This document shows, one piece after another, positions 1 to 45,295 of a stretch of 64,000 nucleotides of DNA. Source of the stretch: Calditrichota bacterium (lineage in GTDB: Bacteria; Calditrichota; Calditrichia; RBG-13-44-9; J042). A program made the translations under genes and the position numbers. Location: NCBI GenBank assembly GCA_013150955.1, contig JAADJD010000062.1, positions 1 through 64,000 on the forward strand. The letters run 5' to 3'. Position 1 is the stretch's first letter, and each line of letters begins with the position of its first letter. The notes under the pieces are model-generated. The model saw only the letters and a program-made list of their open reading frames with translations, was not told the origin of the DNA and did not search any database.

Positions 1-6
1 CTCTCC

Positions 7-765
7 TTAATTTTTATTCAAATATCTTAAACGCCAGAACCAAACGGCAACAAACAACAGGTTAATTAATAATGTAAAATATTGGCCATAACGAAAAATG
101 CTAAACTGAAATCTAACCCCAATATAGTAAAGTGCATCCAGTATATTTGATAGCATAAAGAAAAATATGATCAAATTCAAATATTCACTAAGTACAAAAT
201 GTTTTCGATAATAAAAAATCCAGAAGATCATCAGAGAAAAAATGCTGAGCGACTTAAAATAATAAACCTTCTTGCTGTAAATTGGCCAAATTTCTTGAAG
301 GTTCAGCTGGTCAGGTAAGGTAACGATTGAATAAAAATTAAGGAGAGAAAAAGCGATACAAATAATAAAAACAACAATTAGAGATTTACTATATCCGAGA
401 AATTGAGTAAAACCCAACGCATAAAAAAGCAAATAGAGAGAAACAACAAGAATCAAACTGGTTAAAATAATGTCTGCATAAAAATAAGCCGCATTATTAA
501 ATGGGCTGCTCATTATCGTATATAAAAAAAAGGGAATAAGCAAAATAAACGCCAGATAGAAATAAAATATTTTAAAAAGTAAAACAATATCCCGATTATA
601 TTTCGATAGTTTTAGGTTTTCGTTAATTAAAATGTAGGTCAACAAATAGATAAAGTAATAAACATACGACAAAAGAAATTTTTCACCTTTAAAAAAAATA
701 AATATTAATACGATAATGTAGAATAAAATTAACTTTAGGTACTTTTTTGTTAAAGATAAAATCAT
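7..765 (-). CDS. Polytopic membrane protein, unknown function
   Basis: The 252-residue product is almost wholly hydrophobic. Seven or eight membrane segments can be read, roughly at residues 10-25, 31-47, 63-84, 98-119, 128-146, 173-187, 195-215 and 229-245, joined by short polar loops. I see no catalytic or ligand motif and do not recognise the family. The layout loosely recalls the membrane sensor half of 7TM signalling proteins, but no output domain is attached, as the stop lies 6 bases from the window edge. ATG at 765 has a GAGG ribosome site just upstream. The DNA is much more AT-rich than the housekeeping genes to the right, which may mean transfer or may only reflect Phe/Ile/Leu/Tyr-rich composition. 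A bidirectional terminator isolates it from the repeat-protein gene upstream. Confidence 0.7.
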   Translation of the reverse strand: MILSLTKKYLKLILFYIIVLIFIFFKGEKFLLSYVYYFIYLLTYILINENLKLSKYNRDIVLLFKIFYFYLAFILLIPFFLYTIMSSPFNNAAYFYADIILTSLILVVSLYLLFYALGFTQFLGYSKSLIVVFIICIAFSLLNFYSIVTLPDQLNLQEIWPIYSKKVYYFKSLSIFSLMIFWIFYYRKHFVLSEYLNLIIFFFMLSNILDALYYIGVRFQFSIFRYGQYFTLLINLLFVAVWFWRLRYLNKN

Positions 766-837
766 TCCCTCTATAAGTTATAGTTTAACCATTAAATTAT
801 CGTCATTTTTCTCTTGAAAGTTAGTTAAAAATAAAAA

Positions 838-864
838 AGTGCTAATCCACATGGGATTAGCACT
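838..864. terminator. Bidirectional rho-independent terminator
   Basis: A perfect 10-bp stem, GTGCTAATCC (839-848) with GGATTAGCAC (854-863) and a five-base loop, is extended by an A/T pair. It is flanked by an A-run on the left and a T-run on the right, so it has the intrinsic-terminator form on either strand. It lies 29 bases past the stop of the secreted repeat protein (leftward transcription) and upstream of the membrane-protein gene. Confidence 0.85.
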
Positions 865-892
865 TTTTATCTCAATTAAAGAGTTTTCTGTT

Positions 893-1510
893 CTATCGAG
901 GCAATCCAGGAGGAGGAATCGGATTCCAAATATTCACTCGCGGCAATCCAGGTGGGGGAATCGGATTCCAGATTGAAGCCTCTCCTTTTTGTTCATTTTT
1001 CAACTCATTAACAGCTAAGGCCACTCGCGGCAAACCAGGAGGTGGAATGGGGTTCCAAATGGACAACCGCGGCAAACCGGGAGGAGGAATCGGATTCCAG
1101 ATAGCGACCCGAGGTAACCCAGGAGGAGGAATTGGATTCCAGATCTCTGTTCGAGGTAACCCGGGTGGGGGGATTGGATTCCAGATCGACAAACGAGGCA
1201 ATCCAGGGGGCGGTATCGGGTTCCAAATAGAAATCCGAGGTAACCCCGGTGGGGGAATCGGATTCCATATGGAAATGTCCAGATTTTCTTCTGACGGAGG
1301 CGGTAACGGATTCCAAACATTCAAATTCACAACATCCATAGATGCATCCGGAGAAAAAGAACTATTGGACACAAAATTAACAAAATAAGCACCTGAAACC
1401 GTTACCTTTGCATCTACCGTACCGAAAGTGGTAGATGCAAAAAGACTCAGCGTGAAGATGAGGGCTAATGCCAAGCCCACGACCAGGAGCTTTTTGATGA
1501 TAGTACGCAT
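893..1510 (-). CDS. Secreted proline-rich repeat protein (IWNPIPPPGLPR repeats)
   Basis: The 205-residue product starts at ATG 1510, chosen because AAAGGAGGT lies 6-7 bases upstream; the longer ORF from 1540 lacks such a site. Residues 1-36 form a signal peptide (RTIIKK, then a hydrophobic core, then an Ala/Ser/Thr-rich end). After a short linker come a degenerate unit (VWNPLPPPS, 65-73) and eight perfect IWNPIPPPGLPR units at 81-92, 95-106, 109-120, 123-134, 137-148, 151-162, 180-191 and 194-205. The period is 14 residues with variable dipeptides between units, plus one 17-residue spacer before the last two. The protein ends exactly at the last Arg. Codons differ between units although the peptide does not, which points to selection on the peptide rather than recent duplication. 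PPPG stretches are known to stall ribosomes without EF-P. The function is unknown: a surface or structural repeat and an Arg-processed peptide precursor are both possible. Confidence 0.8.
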   Translation of the reverse strand: MRTIIKKLLVVGLALALIFTLSLFASTTFGTVDAKVTVSGAYFVNFVSNSSFSPDASMDVVNLNVWNPLPPPSEENLDISIWNPIPPPGLPRISIWNPIPPPGLPRLSIWNPIPPPGLPRTEIWNPIPPPGLPRVAIWNPIPPPGLPRLSIWNPIPPPGLPRVALAVNELKNEQKGEASIWNPIPPPGLPRVNIWNPIPPPGLPR

Positions 1511-1579
1511 AACGTACCTCCTTTGGGTTAGATGGGACAAAATTATTGGGACAAATTAACGATTTAATCTTCTTTTGTC

Positions 1580-2065
1580 TTATTTTATTTCCTGTTTAAT
1601 GGCTTCCAGATGTTTTCGAGTGGTTAAAAATTTTTCTCGATTCTGACGATCGATCTTCTCCTGCCGATTGTTCAAAATTAACCAGGAAAAAAACTCATCC
1701 TTGTAGAATAAAATAAACTGATCATTTAACCGGATATGGGGAATTTTCTTGCGTCGGATATGGGTATAAACCGACTTTTTGTGATGCAAATCCAGGTAGG
1801 GATACACATCTTCCACACTCATCATCTCGCGATAGGCAGGCATCCGTTTTATAAACCAGTACCGGTTTTGCTTCTTATACGCACCAAATATTTTATTGGC
1901 TATGGCCATGCGGCGCAAAGGCAATCCTGGACTGCTCTGACTGTCCCGTAACAGGCCAGCATCATGTAGCCAACGTGCAGCTTCCATTAATGGCACTTCT
2001 GCCACGTTATTTTCTCTTAATTTTGATTGGAGAAAATTATTAATTTCCGCTATATTTTTAAACAT
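1580..2065 (-). CDS. DNA-binding protein with two excisionase-like modules
   Basis: The 161-residue protein ends in a basic helix. Residues 82-129 match the excisionase/MerR-type HTH_17 pattern: an SVEDVYPYL first helix, SVYTHIRRKKIPHIR for the recognition helix and turn, then a wing and a KDEFFSWL end. Residues about 21-74 look like a second, diverged module (EAARWLHDAGLL, SSPGLPLRRM, FGAYKKQNRYWFIKR) of the kind seen in phage- or plasmid-type DNA-binding proteins. ATG at 2065 lacks a clear ribosome site, so the start is uncertain. It is transcribed toward the secreted repeat-protein gene with 69 bases between, so it could regulate or be co-transcribed with it; this is inference. No integrase or relaxase lies nearby. 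Confidence 0.65.
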   Translation of the reverse strand: MFKNIAEINNFLQSKLRENNVAEVPLMEAARWLHDAGLLRDSQSSPGLPLRRMAIANKIFGAYKKQNRYWFIKRMPAYREMMSVEDVYPYLDLHHKKSVYTHIRRKKIPHIRLNDQFILFYKDEFFSWLILNNRQEKIDRQNREKFLTTRKHLEAIKQEIK

Positions 2066-2208: not shown

Positions 2209-2943
2209 ATGGAAATGAAAAATAGAGTCGTGTTCATTACAGGAAGCGCTGAACGGGTAGGAAAACACATTGCCCTTTTTTTGGCTCAAAAAGGGGCTTC
2301 TGTTGTGATTCACTATCATACAAAAAAAGAAAAAGCCCGGCAAACTGCTCAAGAAATTGCTCAATTGGGAACCCCTCCCCTGGTCGTTCAGGGGGACATT
2401 TCAAGTGCAGCCGATTGGGAACGCATGCGGGACACCATCCTTCAACACCACGGCCGCATTGACGTCCTGGTCAACAATGCCGCGATTTTCTACAAAACAC
2501 CCTTTCTGGACTCCGACGAAAAGGACTGGGATCGTTTTATGAATGTCAATTTGAAAAGCGTCTACCTGGGATCAAGAATTATTGGCGCCGAAATGGTTCG
2601 CCAAAAAAGCGGTAAAATAATAAATATTGCGGATGTTTCGGCTTACACCATCTGGCCGCAATATATTCCCTATTGCGTTTCCAAAGCCGGGGTCATTGCT
2701 CTTACCAGAGGCCTGGCCAAAGCCCTTGCCCCCCATGTCCTGGTAAACGCCATTGCACCGGGTACCATTTTACTTGCCGAGCAGTATGATGAAGAAGAGG
2801 AGATGGCCTTAATCCAGAAAACCCCCTTAAAACGCATCGGCGATCCGCAGGATATTGCCGCAACGGTGGCCTTTTTGATTGAAGGCAGCGACTTTATTAC
2901 CGGTGCCGTAATCAATGTAGATGGAGGGCGTTCCCTGACCTGA
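2209..2943 (+). CDS. SDR oxidoreductase, pteridine-reductase-like
   Basis: The 244-residue protein has the full length of classical short-chain dehydrogenases. The cofactor site is TGSAERVG (residues 11-18), where the Arg after the glycine turn suggests NADPH use. NNAA is at 89-92, and the catalytic Tyr and Lys are in YCVSK (155-159). The usual catalytic Ser is replaced by Asp142 in NIADVSAY. That replacement is typical of PTR1/FolM-type pteridine reductases, which reduce dihydrobiopterin, dihydromonapterin or dihydrofolate, so this is the best assignment over a generic 3-oxoacyl-ACP reductase. ATG at 2209 follows ACGGGAGAAC. It stands alone, divergent from the HTH gene. Confidence 0.75.
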   Translation: MEMKNRVVFITGSAERVGKHIALFLAQKGASVVIHYHTKKEKARQTAQEIAQLGTPPLVVQGDISSAADWERMRDTILQHHGRIDVLVNNAAIFYKTPFLDSDEKDWDRFMNVNLKSVYLGSRIIGAEMVRQKSGKIINIADVSAYTIWPQYIPYCVSKAGVIALTRGLAKALAPHVLVNAIAPGTILLAEQYDEEEEMALIQKTPLKRIGDPQDIAATVAFLIEGSDFITGAVINVDGGRSLT

Positions 2944-20759: not shown

Positions 20760-22052
20760 ATGATCGATACGCTAAAAATATTCAATGAACTTAAAGAGAA
20801 GCTCGATCCGGAAGCGGCTTTGAAGCTGGCCGAAATCATCGGATCGGTATATTCAGAGCTATCGGACACCGTTACCAAGGCCGAGTTCAATGAGTTAAAA
20901 GATATTGTTCACGATCTGCTAAATGCCCAGAGGCAGACGACGGATCACCTTAATCGCCTGCTGGAGTTCCAGCAAAAAGTTGAAAAACAACTGGAAACGC
21001 TTACCCGACGGGTTGACCAGCTTACAGTCGCGCAACAAAAGACCGAAGAACGGCTCAATCAACTGGCTGAAGCCCAGCAAAAAACCGAAGAACAGCTGGA
21101 GAAGCTTACGCAACGTGTCGATCAGTTGACGATCGCCCAGCAGAAAACTGAGGAGCGACTGGAAAAACTCACTCAACGGGTAGATCAACTGGCCGAAGCT
21201 CAGCGAAAAACCGAAGAACGGCTGGAAAAACTCACCCAACATGTCGATCAGCTGACGATCGCCCAGCAGAAAACTGAGGAGCGACTGGAAAAACTCACTC
21301 AACGGGTGGATCAACTGGCCGAAGCTCAGCGAAAAACCGAAGAACGGCTCAATCAACTGGCACAAGCCCAACAAAAAACCGAAGAACGGCTGGAGAAACT
21401 CACCCAACGCGTCGATCAGCTGACGATCGCCCAGCAGAAAACTGAGGAGCGACTGGAAAAACTCACTCAACGGGTGGATCAACTGGCCGAAGCTCAGCAA
21501 AAAACCGAGCAACGCCTCAATCAGCTGGCCCAAGCCCAACAAAAAACCGAGGAACGGCTCGAGCAATTAGCCGAGGCTCAGAGGAAAACCGAGGAGACGA
21601 TCCGGAAGCTCACCCGCCGGGTGGACGACATCGCGGAACAACTGGGCGGTATTAGCAACACCATCGGGTATCGGCTGGAAGACCAAGCCTACAAACCGCT
21701 GAAACAGATCCTGGAAAAAGAATACCGGATTTCCGTTGATCGCCTCTACCGCAAGAATCTGGTCTATTCCCCCAAAAAATACGATGAAATTAACATCTAC
21801 GGTGAAGGTCAACGGAACGGCAATCGGGTATTTGTAATAGGCGAATGCAAGGCTCAGTTTGGTGTGCGCGATGTAAATCGTTTCCTGAAACTGCTGGAAC
21901 GCCTGAAAAGCCGTCTCGAAGGCGAAATATTCCCTATCACCCTGGCATACCAGTATCATCCGGTAGCCGAGGAAATTCTGAAACAAAAAGGAATCCGCGT
22001 TTTCTGGTCTTACGAAATACCCAATGTCCTCCCTTACTCGGACATTTTTTAA
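20760..22052 (+). CDS. Heptad-repeat coiled coil fused to PD-(D/E)XK-like domain
   Basis: In this 430-residue protein, residues about 60-290 form one long coiled coil built from 14- and 21-residue units such as QQKTEERLNQLAEA and EKLTQRVDQLTIA, always in whole heptads. The last 140 residues are globular and resemble DUF3782-type nuclease-fold proteins: the KKYDEINIYGEG and VFVIGECKAQFG segments give a D...ExK pattern of the PD-(D/E)XK superfamily, and RFLKLLERL and FPITLAYQYHP follow. The coil probably sets oligomer state or spacing. At DNA level the repeat block is nearly identical at 21127, 21253 and 21421 (spacings 126 and 168), showing recent internal duplication. ATG 20760 lacks a strong ribosome site. 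The function is unknown. Confidence 0.75.
   Translation: MIDTLKIFNELKEKLDPEAALKLAEIIGSVYSELSDTVTKAEFNELKDIVHDLLNAQRQTTDHLNRLLEFQQKVEKQLETLTRRVDQLTVAQQKTEERLNQLAEAQQKTEEQLEKLTQRVDQLTIAQQKTEERLEKLTQRVDQLAEAQRKTEERLEKLTQHVDQLTIAQQKTEERLEKLTQRVDQLAEAQRKTEERLNQLAQAQQKTEERLEKLTQRVDQLTIAQQKTEERLEKLTQRVDQLAEAQQKTEQRLNQLAQAQQKTEERLEQLAEAQRKTEETIRKLTRRVDDIAEQLGGISNTIGYRLEDQAYKPLKQILEKEYRISVDRLYRKNLVYSPKKYDEINIYGEGQRNGNRVFVIGECKAQFGVRDVNRFLKLLERLKSRLEGEIFPITLAYQYHPVAEEILKQKGIRVFWSYEIPNVLPYSDIF
20990..21610 (+). repeat. Tandem heptad-coding minisatellite inside the coiled-coil gene
   Basis: A block beginning TGACGATCGCCCAGCAGAAA recurs at 21127, 21253 and 21421 with almost no substitutions over about 90 bases. 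Shorter related units fill the rest. Spacings of 126 and 168 bases are multiples of 42 (two heptads), so gain or loss of units keeps both the reading frame and the coil register. Confidence 0.8.
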
Positions 22053-45071: not shown

Positions 45072-45295
45072 TTAACTCAGATTTTGCATTCGGCTACGAA
45101 TTACACGAATAGTCATGAATAAACCCAGATGATGCATTAGGCCACAAATTAAACGAATTAACACAAATAAAATTAAAAAAACACCCTGGATATTAAATCT
45201 GAATGAAAATTTGTTTCGGTGTTTGTTAGCGATTTTGTGGGTATTTTTTAGATTCATTCGCGTAATTTGCGTTTAATGCACTTATTTGGGTTTAA
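45072..45295. repeat. Interspersed palindromic repeat, copy F (short subtype)
   Basis: It opens with a partial arm TTTAACTCAGATTTTGCATT and continues ACGAATTACACGAATAGTCA. A complete left arm AAACCCAGATGATGCATTAG follows. The middle has AAACACCCTGGATATTAAAT and GCGATTTTGTGGGTATTTTT. The right arm ends GCACTTATTTGGGTTTAA. It lies between yigZ and the next rightward gene, in the promoter regions of both. Confidence 0.8.

Follow-up and report, generated by a model that had tools for sequence, protein, structure and literature searches.

Why would a member of the Calditrichota encode the same proline-rich peptide eight times over within one small, putatively exported protein, and keep that peptide constant while its codons vary? 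This question is raised by a gene in a stretch of 64,000 nucleotides (hereafter the window) that opens contig 20 of a genome of 4.07 Mb (99.7% complete). The best explanation of the gene, its relatives, and its neighbors is that a secreted peptide ligand is made from a multi-copy precursor and sensed in a pheromone-like manner by a 7TM/kinase pair, a reading that we regard as evenly poised between right and wrong.

The Precursor and Its Repeat Units

The first-pass annotation of this gene described eight identical units, and eight exact copies of IWNPIPPPGLPR are indeed encoded on the reverse strand between 893 and 1510, with the stop codon right behind the final Arg as had been stated (Table 1). 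The dipeptide reported between units stands, except between units 6 and 7, where the spacer is 17 residues long. Residues 1–28 of the precursor share 61% identity with the homolog from genome G002, and in the precursors of both families that carry the gene (f1 and f3), a basic N terminus is followed by a hydrophobic core, which is scored as an export signal by our rule-based calls. The precursor has no family match in Pfam or NCBIfam, in keeping with the earlier statement that no described family was known.

Table 1. Coordinates of the features of the precursor locus within the window.
Feature	Position	Strand	Remarks
7TM-type membrane protein, first 252 residues	7..765	-	gene leaves contig end; last 91 codons at G000:C3:3-278
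Intrinsic terminator, precursor/7TM intergenic region	834..868	-	15-pair stem and T run
Precursor gene	893..1510	-	205 aa: signal sequence, degenerate unit, eight IWNPIPPPGLPR units; start codon ATG at 1510; basis: sequence and syntenic homologs
Unit 8, IWNPIPPPGLPR	896..931	-	stop codon directly after
Unit 7, IWNPIPPPGLPR	938..973	-
Spacer VALAVNELKNEQKGEAS, units 6/7	974..1024	-	17 residues
Unit 6, IWNPIPPPGLPR	1025..1060	-
Unit 5, IWNPIPPPGLPR	1067..1102	-
Unit 4, IWNPIPPPGLPR	1109..1144	-
Unit 3, IWNPIPPPGLPR	1151..1186	-
Unit 2, IWNPIPPPGLPR	1193..1228	-
Unit 1, IWNPIPPPGLPR	1235..1270	-
Degenerate unit VWNPLPPPSEENLD	1277..1318	-	ninth unit, ahead of the eight exact ones
Predicted N-terminal signal sequence MRTIIKKLLVVGLALALIFTLSLFASTTFGTVDA	1409..1510	-	cleavage site inferred; basis: sequence
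Shine-Dalgarno AAAGGAGGT	1516..1524	-	5 nt before precursor ATG; graded strong; basis: sequence
Winged-HTH protein (HTH_17; BldC/RdfS/MerR-like model)	1580..2065	-	upstream partner, conserved in f1 and f3
Short-chain dehydrogenase (SDR) gene	2209..2943	+	divergent; conserved neighbor of the locus

Tandem Repeats Finder reports the array only as a 72–74% repeat. An open reading frame on the forward strand (1047-1388), with GGGIGFQI repeats, was set aside as the antisense shadow of the precursor repeats. The genome encodes EF-P, and no RNA was found by Rfam within the window.

The codons of the array indicate how it has been maintained. Eleven of the 36 nucleotide columns vary among the eight units, every one at a third codon position, and the changes required between units (at least 20) are all synonymous (20 of 20). 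In the absence of selection, an all-silent pattern would arise by chance with a probability of about 4e-12 (27% synonymous sites), a simple count in which changes fall at random over sites and mutation bias is ignored. Because every one of these differences is silent, the unit peptide is, on this codon evidence, under strong purifying selection. The units differ pairwise by a mean of 6.75 over about 9.7 synonymous sites and therefore are not fresh copies, so that the array is judged to be neither a product of chance nor a recent expansion. The same holds at the peptide level in two further genomes, where all between-unit changes are likewise silent (8 of 8 in the G007 homolog, and 9 of 9 in that of G003). 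Protein-identical units with synonymous differences, interpreted as old repeats kept by selection, had been proposed from the window alone, and both the observation and its interpretation are borne out across the three genomes.

Homologs and Variation of the Unit

The first-pass annotation listed the lack of any homolog with a conserved unit among its refuting outcomes; this outcome did not arise, as syntenic precursor homologs occur in six other genomes from two Calditrichota families (f1 and f3), and W[NS]P-type units are found in five of the six. The homolog in G007 has five copies of LNTWNPLVPPGIPPELS, those in G005 and G003 have the units WNPVRPPHIPDLAT and WNPWPPPIKKEKGGDG, respectively, and that in G002 has one single unit, WNPTPRPDLPIP; the homolog in G009 is divergent and carries IIPIPRPGGGKPTI. 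The G013 homolog has WSPVVPPKIPKLAT units in a reading frame that is broken in the assembly. The array resumes in another frame after the frameshift (L034:5525-5680), in which the later units and the end, ...IPKFV, can be read; the fault at this point lies either in the assembly or in the gene itself.

The number of units ranges across genomes from 1 to 8 or more. Within one genome the units are near-uniform, and among genomes they vary around a W[NS]PxxPP core in a genus-specific manner (e.g., WNPLVPPGIPP, WNPVRPPHIPD, WSPVVPPKIPK, and WNPWPPPIK), which is the pattern expected of a ligand that carries specificity. PPPG, which had been taken as a defining feature of the unit, is not conserved, as homologs carry VPPG, RPPH, VPPK, and RPDL at this position. 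Only the window's genome has units with a terminal Arg; in the homologs, the units run on into PELS, D, K, IPD, or KEKGG, and no common dibasic or other processing site was found between units among the f1 and f3 homologs compared. Since the Arg is absent from the homologs, cleavage at this residue is unlikely as a general mechanism. From the earlier suggestion of an Arg-cleaved precursor, the exported multi-copy precursor is thus retained as the best reading, and the Arg cleavage is not.

We scanned 84,980 species genomes for pairs of W[NS]PxxPP units 19–49 nt apart and obtained 81 stretches, which are mostly proline-rich chance frames; only four of the 81 (L055, L062, L110, and L119) are short exported open reading frames at the syntenic locus. 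Three viral contigs also matched the pattern, and the one proline-rich frame that was read (L129) is a 582-aa protein of another type.

A Conserved Operon With a 7TM Protein and Histidine Kinases

The neighborhood of the precursor, which was outside the view of the first-pass annotation, points to signaling. As far as the contigs extend, the gene order conserved in f1 and f3 is SDR (divergent), HTH protein, precursor, 7TM-type protein, a PAS-HisKA-HATPase-REC kinase, and a HAMP-PAS-GAF-HisKA-HATPase-REC kinase; in G002 and G005, a gene for a YfiR-like protein lies between both hybrid kinases. In the window's genome, the 3' part of the 7TM gene and the kinases are located at the start of contig 3. 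The genes for the 7TM protein and the first kinase overlap or are spaced by no more than about 12 nt in f1, f3, f4, and f6, and the PAS domain of this kinase begins at about residue 19. From this coupling, and from a kinase match that opens with PAS, we take the 7TM protein to be the probable sensor half of a split receptor kinase.

The precursor and 7TM genes are separated by an intrinsic terminator (region 826-880: -21.4 kcal/mol, z -6.7), and its placement suggests that more mRNA is made from the precursor gene than from the receptor gene. The HTH protein is modeled as a winged helix whose better-aligned structural matches, none of them significant, are BldC and RdfS, and is likely a local regulator. 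Its match to the model of the MADS1 HTH defense protein (NF047737; 20.3 bits, with a cut-off of 80) is sub-threshold.

The 7TM gene is repeatedly a site of assembly breaks. In the window's genome it is split across two contig ends (window 1-10; G000:C3:1-278, L032), and the final bases of contig 20 carry an apparent frameshift; the contigs of G001 and G002 likewise break inside this gene.

Predicted Fold of the 7TM Protein

Neither Pfam (searched with 13 members) nor NCBIfam yielded a convincing match for the 7TM protein, and its profile matched no PDB sequence. An AlphaFold2 model was built for the G007 ortholog from four orthologs; its confidence is low to moderate (mean pLDDT 64), with residues 40-200 better. 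In this model, one N-terminal helix precedes seven others (34-249), after which a linker leads to two more helices. The listed Foldseek matches are almost all GPCRs, with a best E of 0.019 and none significant. The rows listed by a second structure aligner are GPCR-like, and the top row, LYCHOS, reaches Z 15.0 with an rmsd of 3.9 over 216 residues, for a model of mean pLDDT 64. Helical bundles can reach Z 13-14 without kinship, by arrangement alone, and for this reason "GPCR-like bundle" is used as a plausible description of the model rather than a statement of kinship, and LYCHOS is not accepted as a relative.

Distribution of the 7TM Protein and Proline-Rich Peptides

The survey covered 40 genomes of the class, in families f1 to f6. 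The 7TM profile was matched in three of four f1 genomes, four of five f3, three of three f4, and six of six f6, and in none of the seven f2 and 15 f5 genomes. Exported proline-rich peptides follow closely (f1 3/4, f3 4/5, f4 2/3, f6 6/6, f2 0/7, and f5 0/15). The traits disagree in G001 and G003, where a contig ends in or beside the locus, and in G019, which is 80% complete; neither trait is present in G011 (84% complete). On a GyrB tree, three changes are required for each trait, placed identically, two of which are forced by well-supported branches. The co-distribution thus rests on two or three evolutionary changes, and is suggestive, not strong.

The peptides of f4 and f6 are about 53-77 aa long and are multiplied as separate genes, and most lack the conserved Trp of the f1 and f3 units. 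In f6 their genes lie between prfA and ssb (e.g., YSLLVVFPPPGLPKDKKKKDGQ), as two tandem genes in G031, and the f4 genome G018 has a tandem cluster (VVPIPPPDYPKPKGC) beside ssb, probably in the same interval; in f6 and G018 the peptide genes are thus away from the 7TM locus. Peptide loci of the prfA/ssb interval (L142, L143, L162, L163, and L165-L168, from f6 and probably G018) sometimes hold tandem duplicates, and in G031 and G021 another small exported open reading frame (MIRHIKSLLVVL..., VVRQIKSLLVVV...) lies beside the peptide genes.

In two further genomes, the peptide and 7TM genes are close neighbors. G016 (f4) has three tandem peptide genes directly downstream of the 7TM/kinase pair, with AAIPPFEKPELPPKK occurring twice. 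The only 7TM homolog outside the phylum, among about 345 genomes, is from G040, the one genome by which its own phylum was represented in the search. Upstream of this 7TM gene is an exported 65-aa open reading frame ending in YASLQVEYPLPPRPPPK, and a DDE transposase gene (L225:6330-7562) is the sole gene between the two. The chance expectation for such a frame in the 9-kb G040 locus is about 0.04, a rate derived from roughly 450 kb of loci scanned under the same criteria, in which two hits looked like false positives; three matches in this background set are family members themselves, in two mis-included loci. A profile of the f4/f6 peptides recovered neither the f1/f3 precursors nor the G040 frame at significance (E 0.5 or worse), and homology across the families is therefore not claimed. 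What the data establish is a common architecture and linkage; descent from one ancestor is unproven.

Proposed Function and Alternative Explanations

The sequences themselves establish the architecture of an exported precursor, selection on the peptide in three genomes, units specific to each genus, a conserved operon, co-distribution with the 7TM protein, and close linkage in two further genomes; from there we infer secretion, processing, binding by the 7TM protein, and kinase output, as follows. The precursor would be exported through its signal sequence and cut by a protease to give many copies of a peptide of the W-N-P-x-x-P-P type. At the outer face of the inner membrane, this peptide would be sensed by the adjacent 7TM-type protein, which would relay the signal both to the soluble, translationally coupled PAS-HisKA-HATPase-REC kinase and to the operon's second hybrid kinase; overall, the peptide would act as a pheromone or as an autocrine signal of density. 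In some relatives, multiple copies of the peptide may come from tandem gene duplication and not from intragenic repeats.

This ligand reading is supported by the silent-only changes among units, the near-uniformity of units in each genome against their divergence among genomes, the conserved order of the locus, the coupling of the 7TM protein to the kinase, and the co-distribution of peptide and 7TM protein, as well as by the peptide genes beside the 7TM gene in G016 and G040, the alignment of the 7TM model with GPCR and GPCR-like structures, and the precedent of tandem pheromones in one exported precursor known for Phr (PMC11343458). It is weakened by the failure of the f4/f6 profile to recover the f1/f3 precursors and the G040 frame, by the location of the f6 and G018 peptides off the 7TM locus and the two or three changes behind the co-distribution, by the mean pLDDT of 64 for a bundle type that can reach high Z without kinship, by a bona fide terminator that parts the precursor from the receptor gene, and by the single unit in G002.

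The main rival, which we consider unlikely, is that the protein stays uncleaved as a periplasmic or surface repeat protein, a short polyproline rod that serves the 7TM/kinase complex as an accessory subunit or co-sensor, or that acts as a small envelope scaffold, with the repeats providing avidity rather than a supply of free peptides. The linkage and selection data would fit such a rod equally well, as would the lack of a processing site conserved among genomes, the tolerated variable spacers, and the range in unit number. A rod accounts less readily for units that differ across genera yet are uniform in each genome, and the short f4 and f6 relatives, present as separate gene copies, are a better fit for a released peptide.

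Three other roles are less likely. An antimicrobial or competition peptide, with the kinases regulating its production, would match the proline-rich repeated units of an exported precursor, and insect apidaecins offer a precedent for multi-copy precursors of proline-rich peptides; we judge this improbable, given that the positive charge of the units is low at most (IWNPIPPPGLPR is +1, WNPLVPPGIPPELS negative), whereas the known proline-rich antimicrobial peptides are cationic, and that no immunity, modification, or ABC exporter genes were recognized among the annotated neighbors. Very improbable is a RiPP precursor, in which the units would be cores for a modification enzyme acting, e.g., at the conserved Trp: a multi-core layout and a Trp conserved in f1 and f3 would be in line with this, but the signal sequence is of the Sec type rather than a RiPP leader, most f4 and f6 peptides lack the Trp, and no modification enzyme was recognized among the annotated neighbors scanned, save the short-chain dehydrogenase. 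The least probable of all is a sensor of translation arrest or EF-P, in which a polyproline nascent chain would stall ribosomes and control downstream genes in the manner of SecM or MifM. Here, PPP and PPG motifs do occur near the stop codon, behind a signal sequence, with regulatory genes downstream and a terminator in between; against this, the units of G002, G005, G007, and G013 have no PPP, eight repeats are more than arrest needs, every unit residue and not the prolines alone is kept between repeats, and in f6 the gene that follows the peptides, ssb, is unrelated.

Comparison With Known Peptide Signaling Systems

Linear peptide signaling is well studied in Bacillota and, to our knowledge, hardly known in Gram-negative-type phyla. 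Our broader proposal, held tentatively and with somewhat more doubt than belief, is that a Sec-exported, multi-copy, linear, proline-rich, genus-specific peptide is combined with a stand-alone, GPCR-like receptor of seven helices and soluble hybrid histidine kinases in several families of Calditrichota and in at least one further phylum, and that this combination is undescribed in Gram-negative-type bacteria; the literature consulted, mostly open-access journals, held no description of such a system in Calditrichota. If the ligand reading is correct, an almost uncultured phylum would have a peptide language of its own, in which the sensor recalls eukaryotic GPCRs in its predicted fold and the precursor is laid out in parallel with yeast pheromones, and convergent versus shared design of peptide-receptor systems would become testable. 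Even without a pheromone role, tiny exported proline-rich peptides that track a 7TM/kinase module across the phylum would constitute an undescribed sensory system.

The closest bacterial parallel is with Phr of the RRNPPA systems in Bacillota, which shares a small Sec-exported precursor, a C-terminal linear peptide, sometimes in several copies, and an adjacent receptor gene; Phr propeptides with tandem pheromones in one exported precursor include Phr3T/Phr105 (PMC11343458). Phr peptides are taken back up and reach TPR receptors in the cytosol, whereas the Calditrichota neighbor is a 7TM protein with histidine kinases, and the Calditrichota units are proline-rich and 11-17 residues or longer. 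No TPR receptor is adjacent to the precursor, where the neighbors are HTH_17, the 7TM protein, and histidine kinases. The Phr_nterm model (TIGR04429) does not match the window protein, and matches one f6 peptide (G022) at 19.7 bits, below the cut-off of 25 and in the signal sequence only. Fungal multi-copy precursors (S. pombe P-factor, PMC6342294; Kex2-processed repeat proteins, PMC7329392) are similar in their secreted, tandem, near-identical units, and in fungi a 7TM receptor senses the pheromone, as in Calditrichota a 7TM protein adjoins the precursor. The fungal systems differ in being eukaryotic, with Kex2 sites between units and G-protein output, while the Calditrichota precursors have no conserved dibasic site and a predicted histidine-kinase output. 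The Calditrichota system would thus work like Phr and the fungal precursors but is a member of neither class, given the lack of an adjacent TPR receptor, the below-cut-off TIGR04429 score, and the absence of Kex2-type sites.

Bacterial 7TM sensors (7TMR-type RgsP, PMC6107284; LytS-type BtsS, PMC10653868) likewise join a multi-helix membrane sensor domain to signal transduction. The Calditrichota sensor differs from these in forming a polypeptide of its own, to which a soluble hybrid kinase is coupled, and in having two additional helices at the C terminus; the 13 members searched gave no convincing Pfam match. There is a real chance that this receptor arrangement makes the system a new kind.

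Other Repeats in the Window

Two other repeats occur in the window. A long tandem repeat at 21058-21593, with units of 42/63/126 bp, reads as a repeat of the coiled-coil type (QKTEERLEKLTQ...), and a 48-bp imperfect repeat at 45074-45171 is present in two copies.
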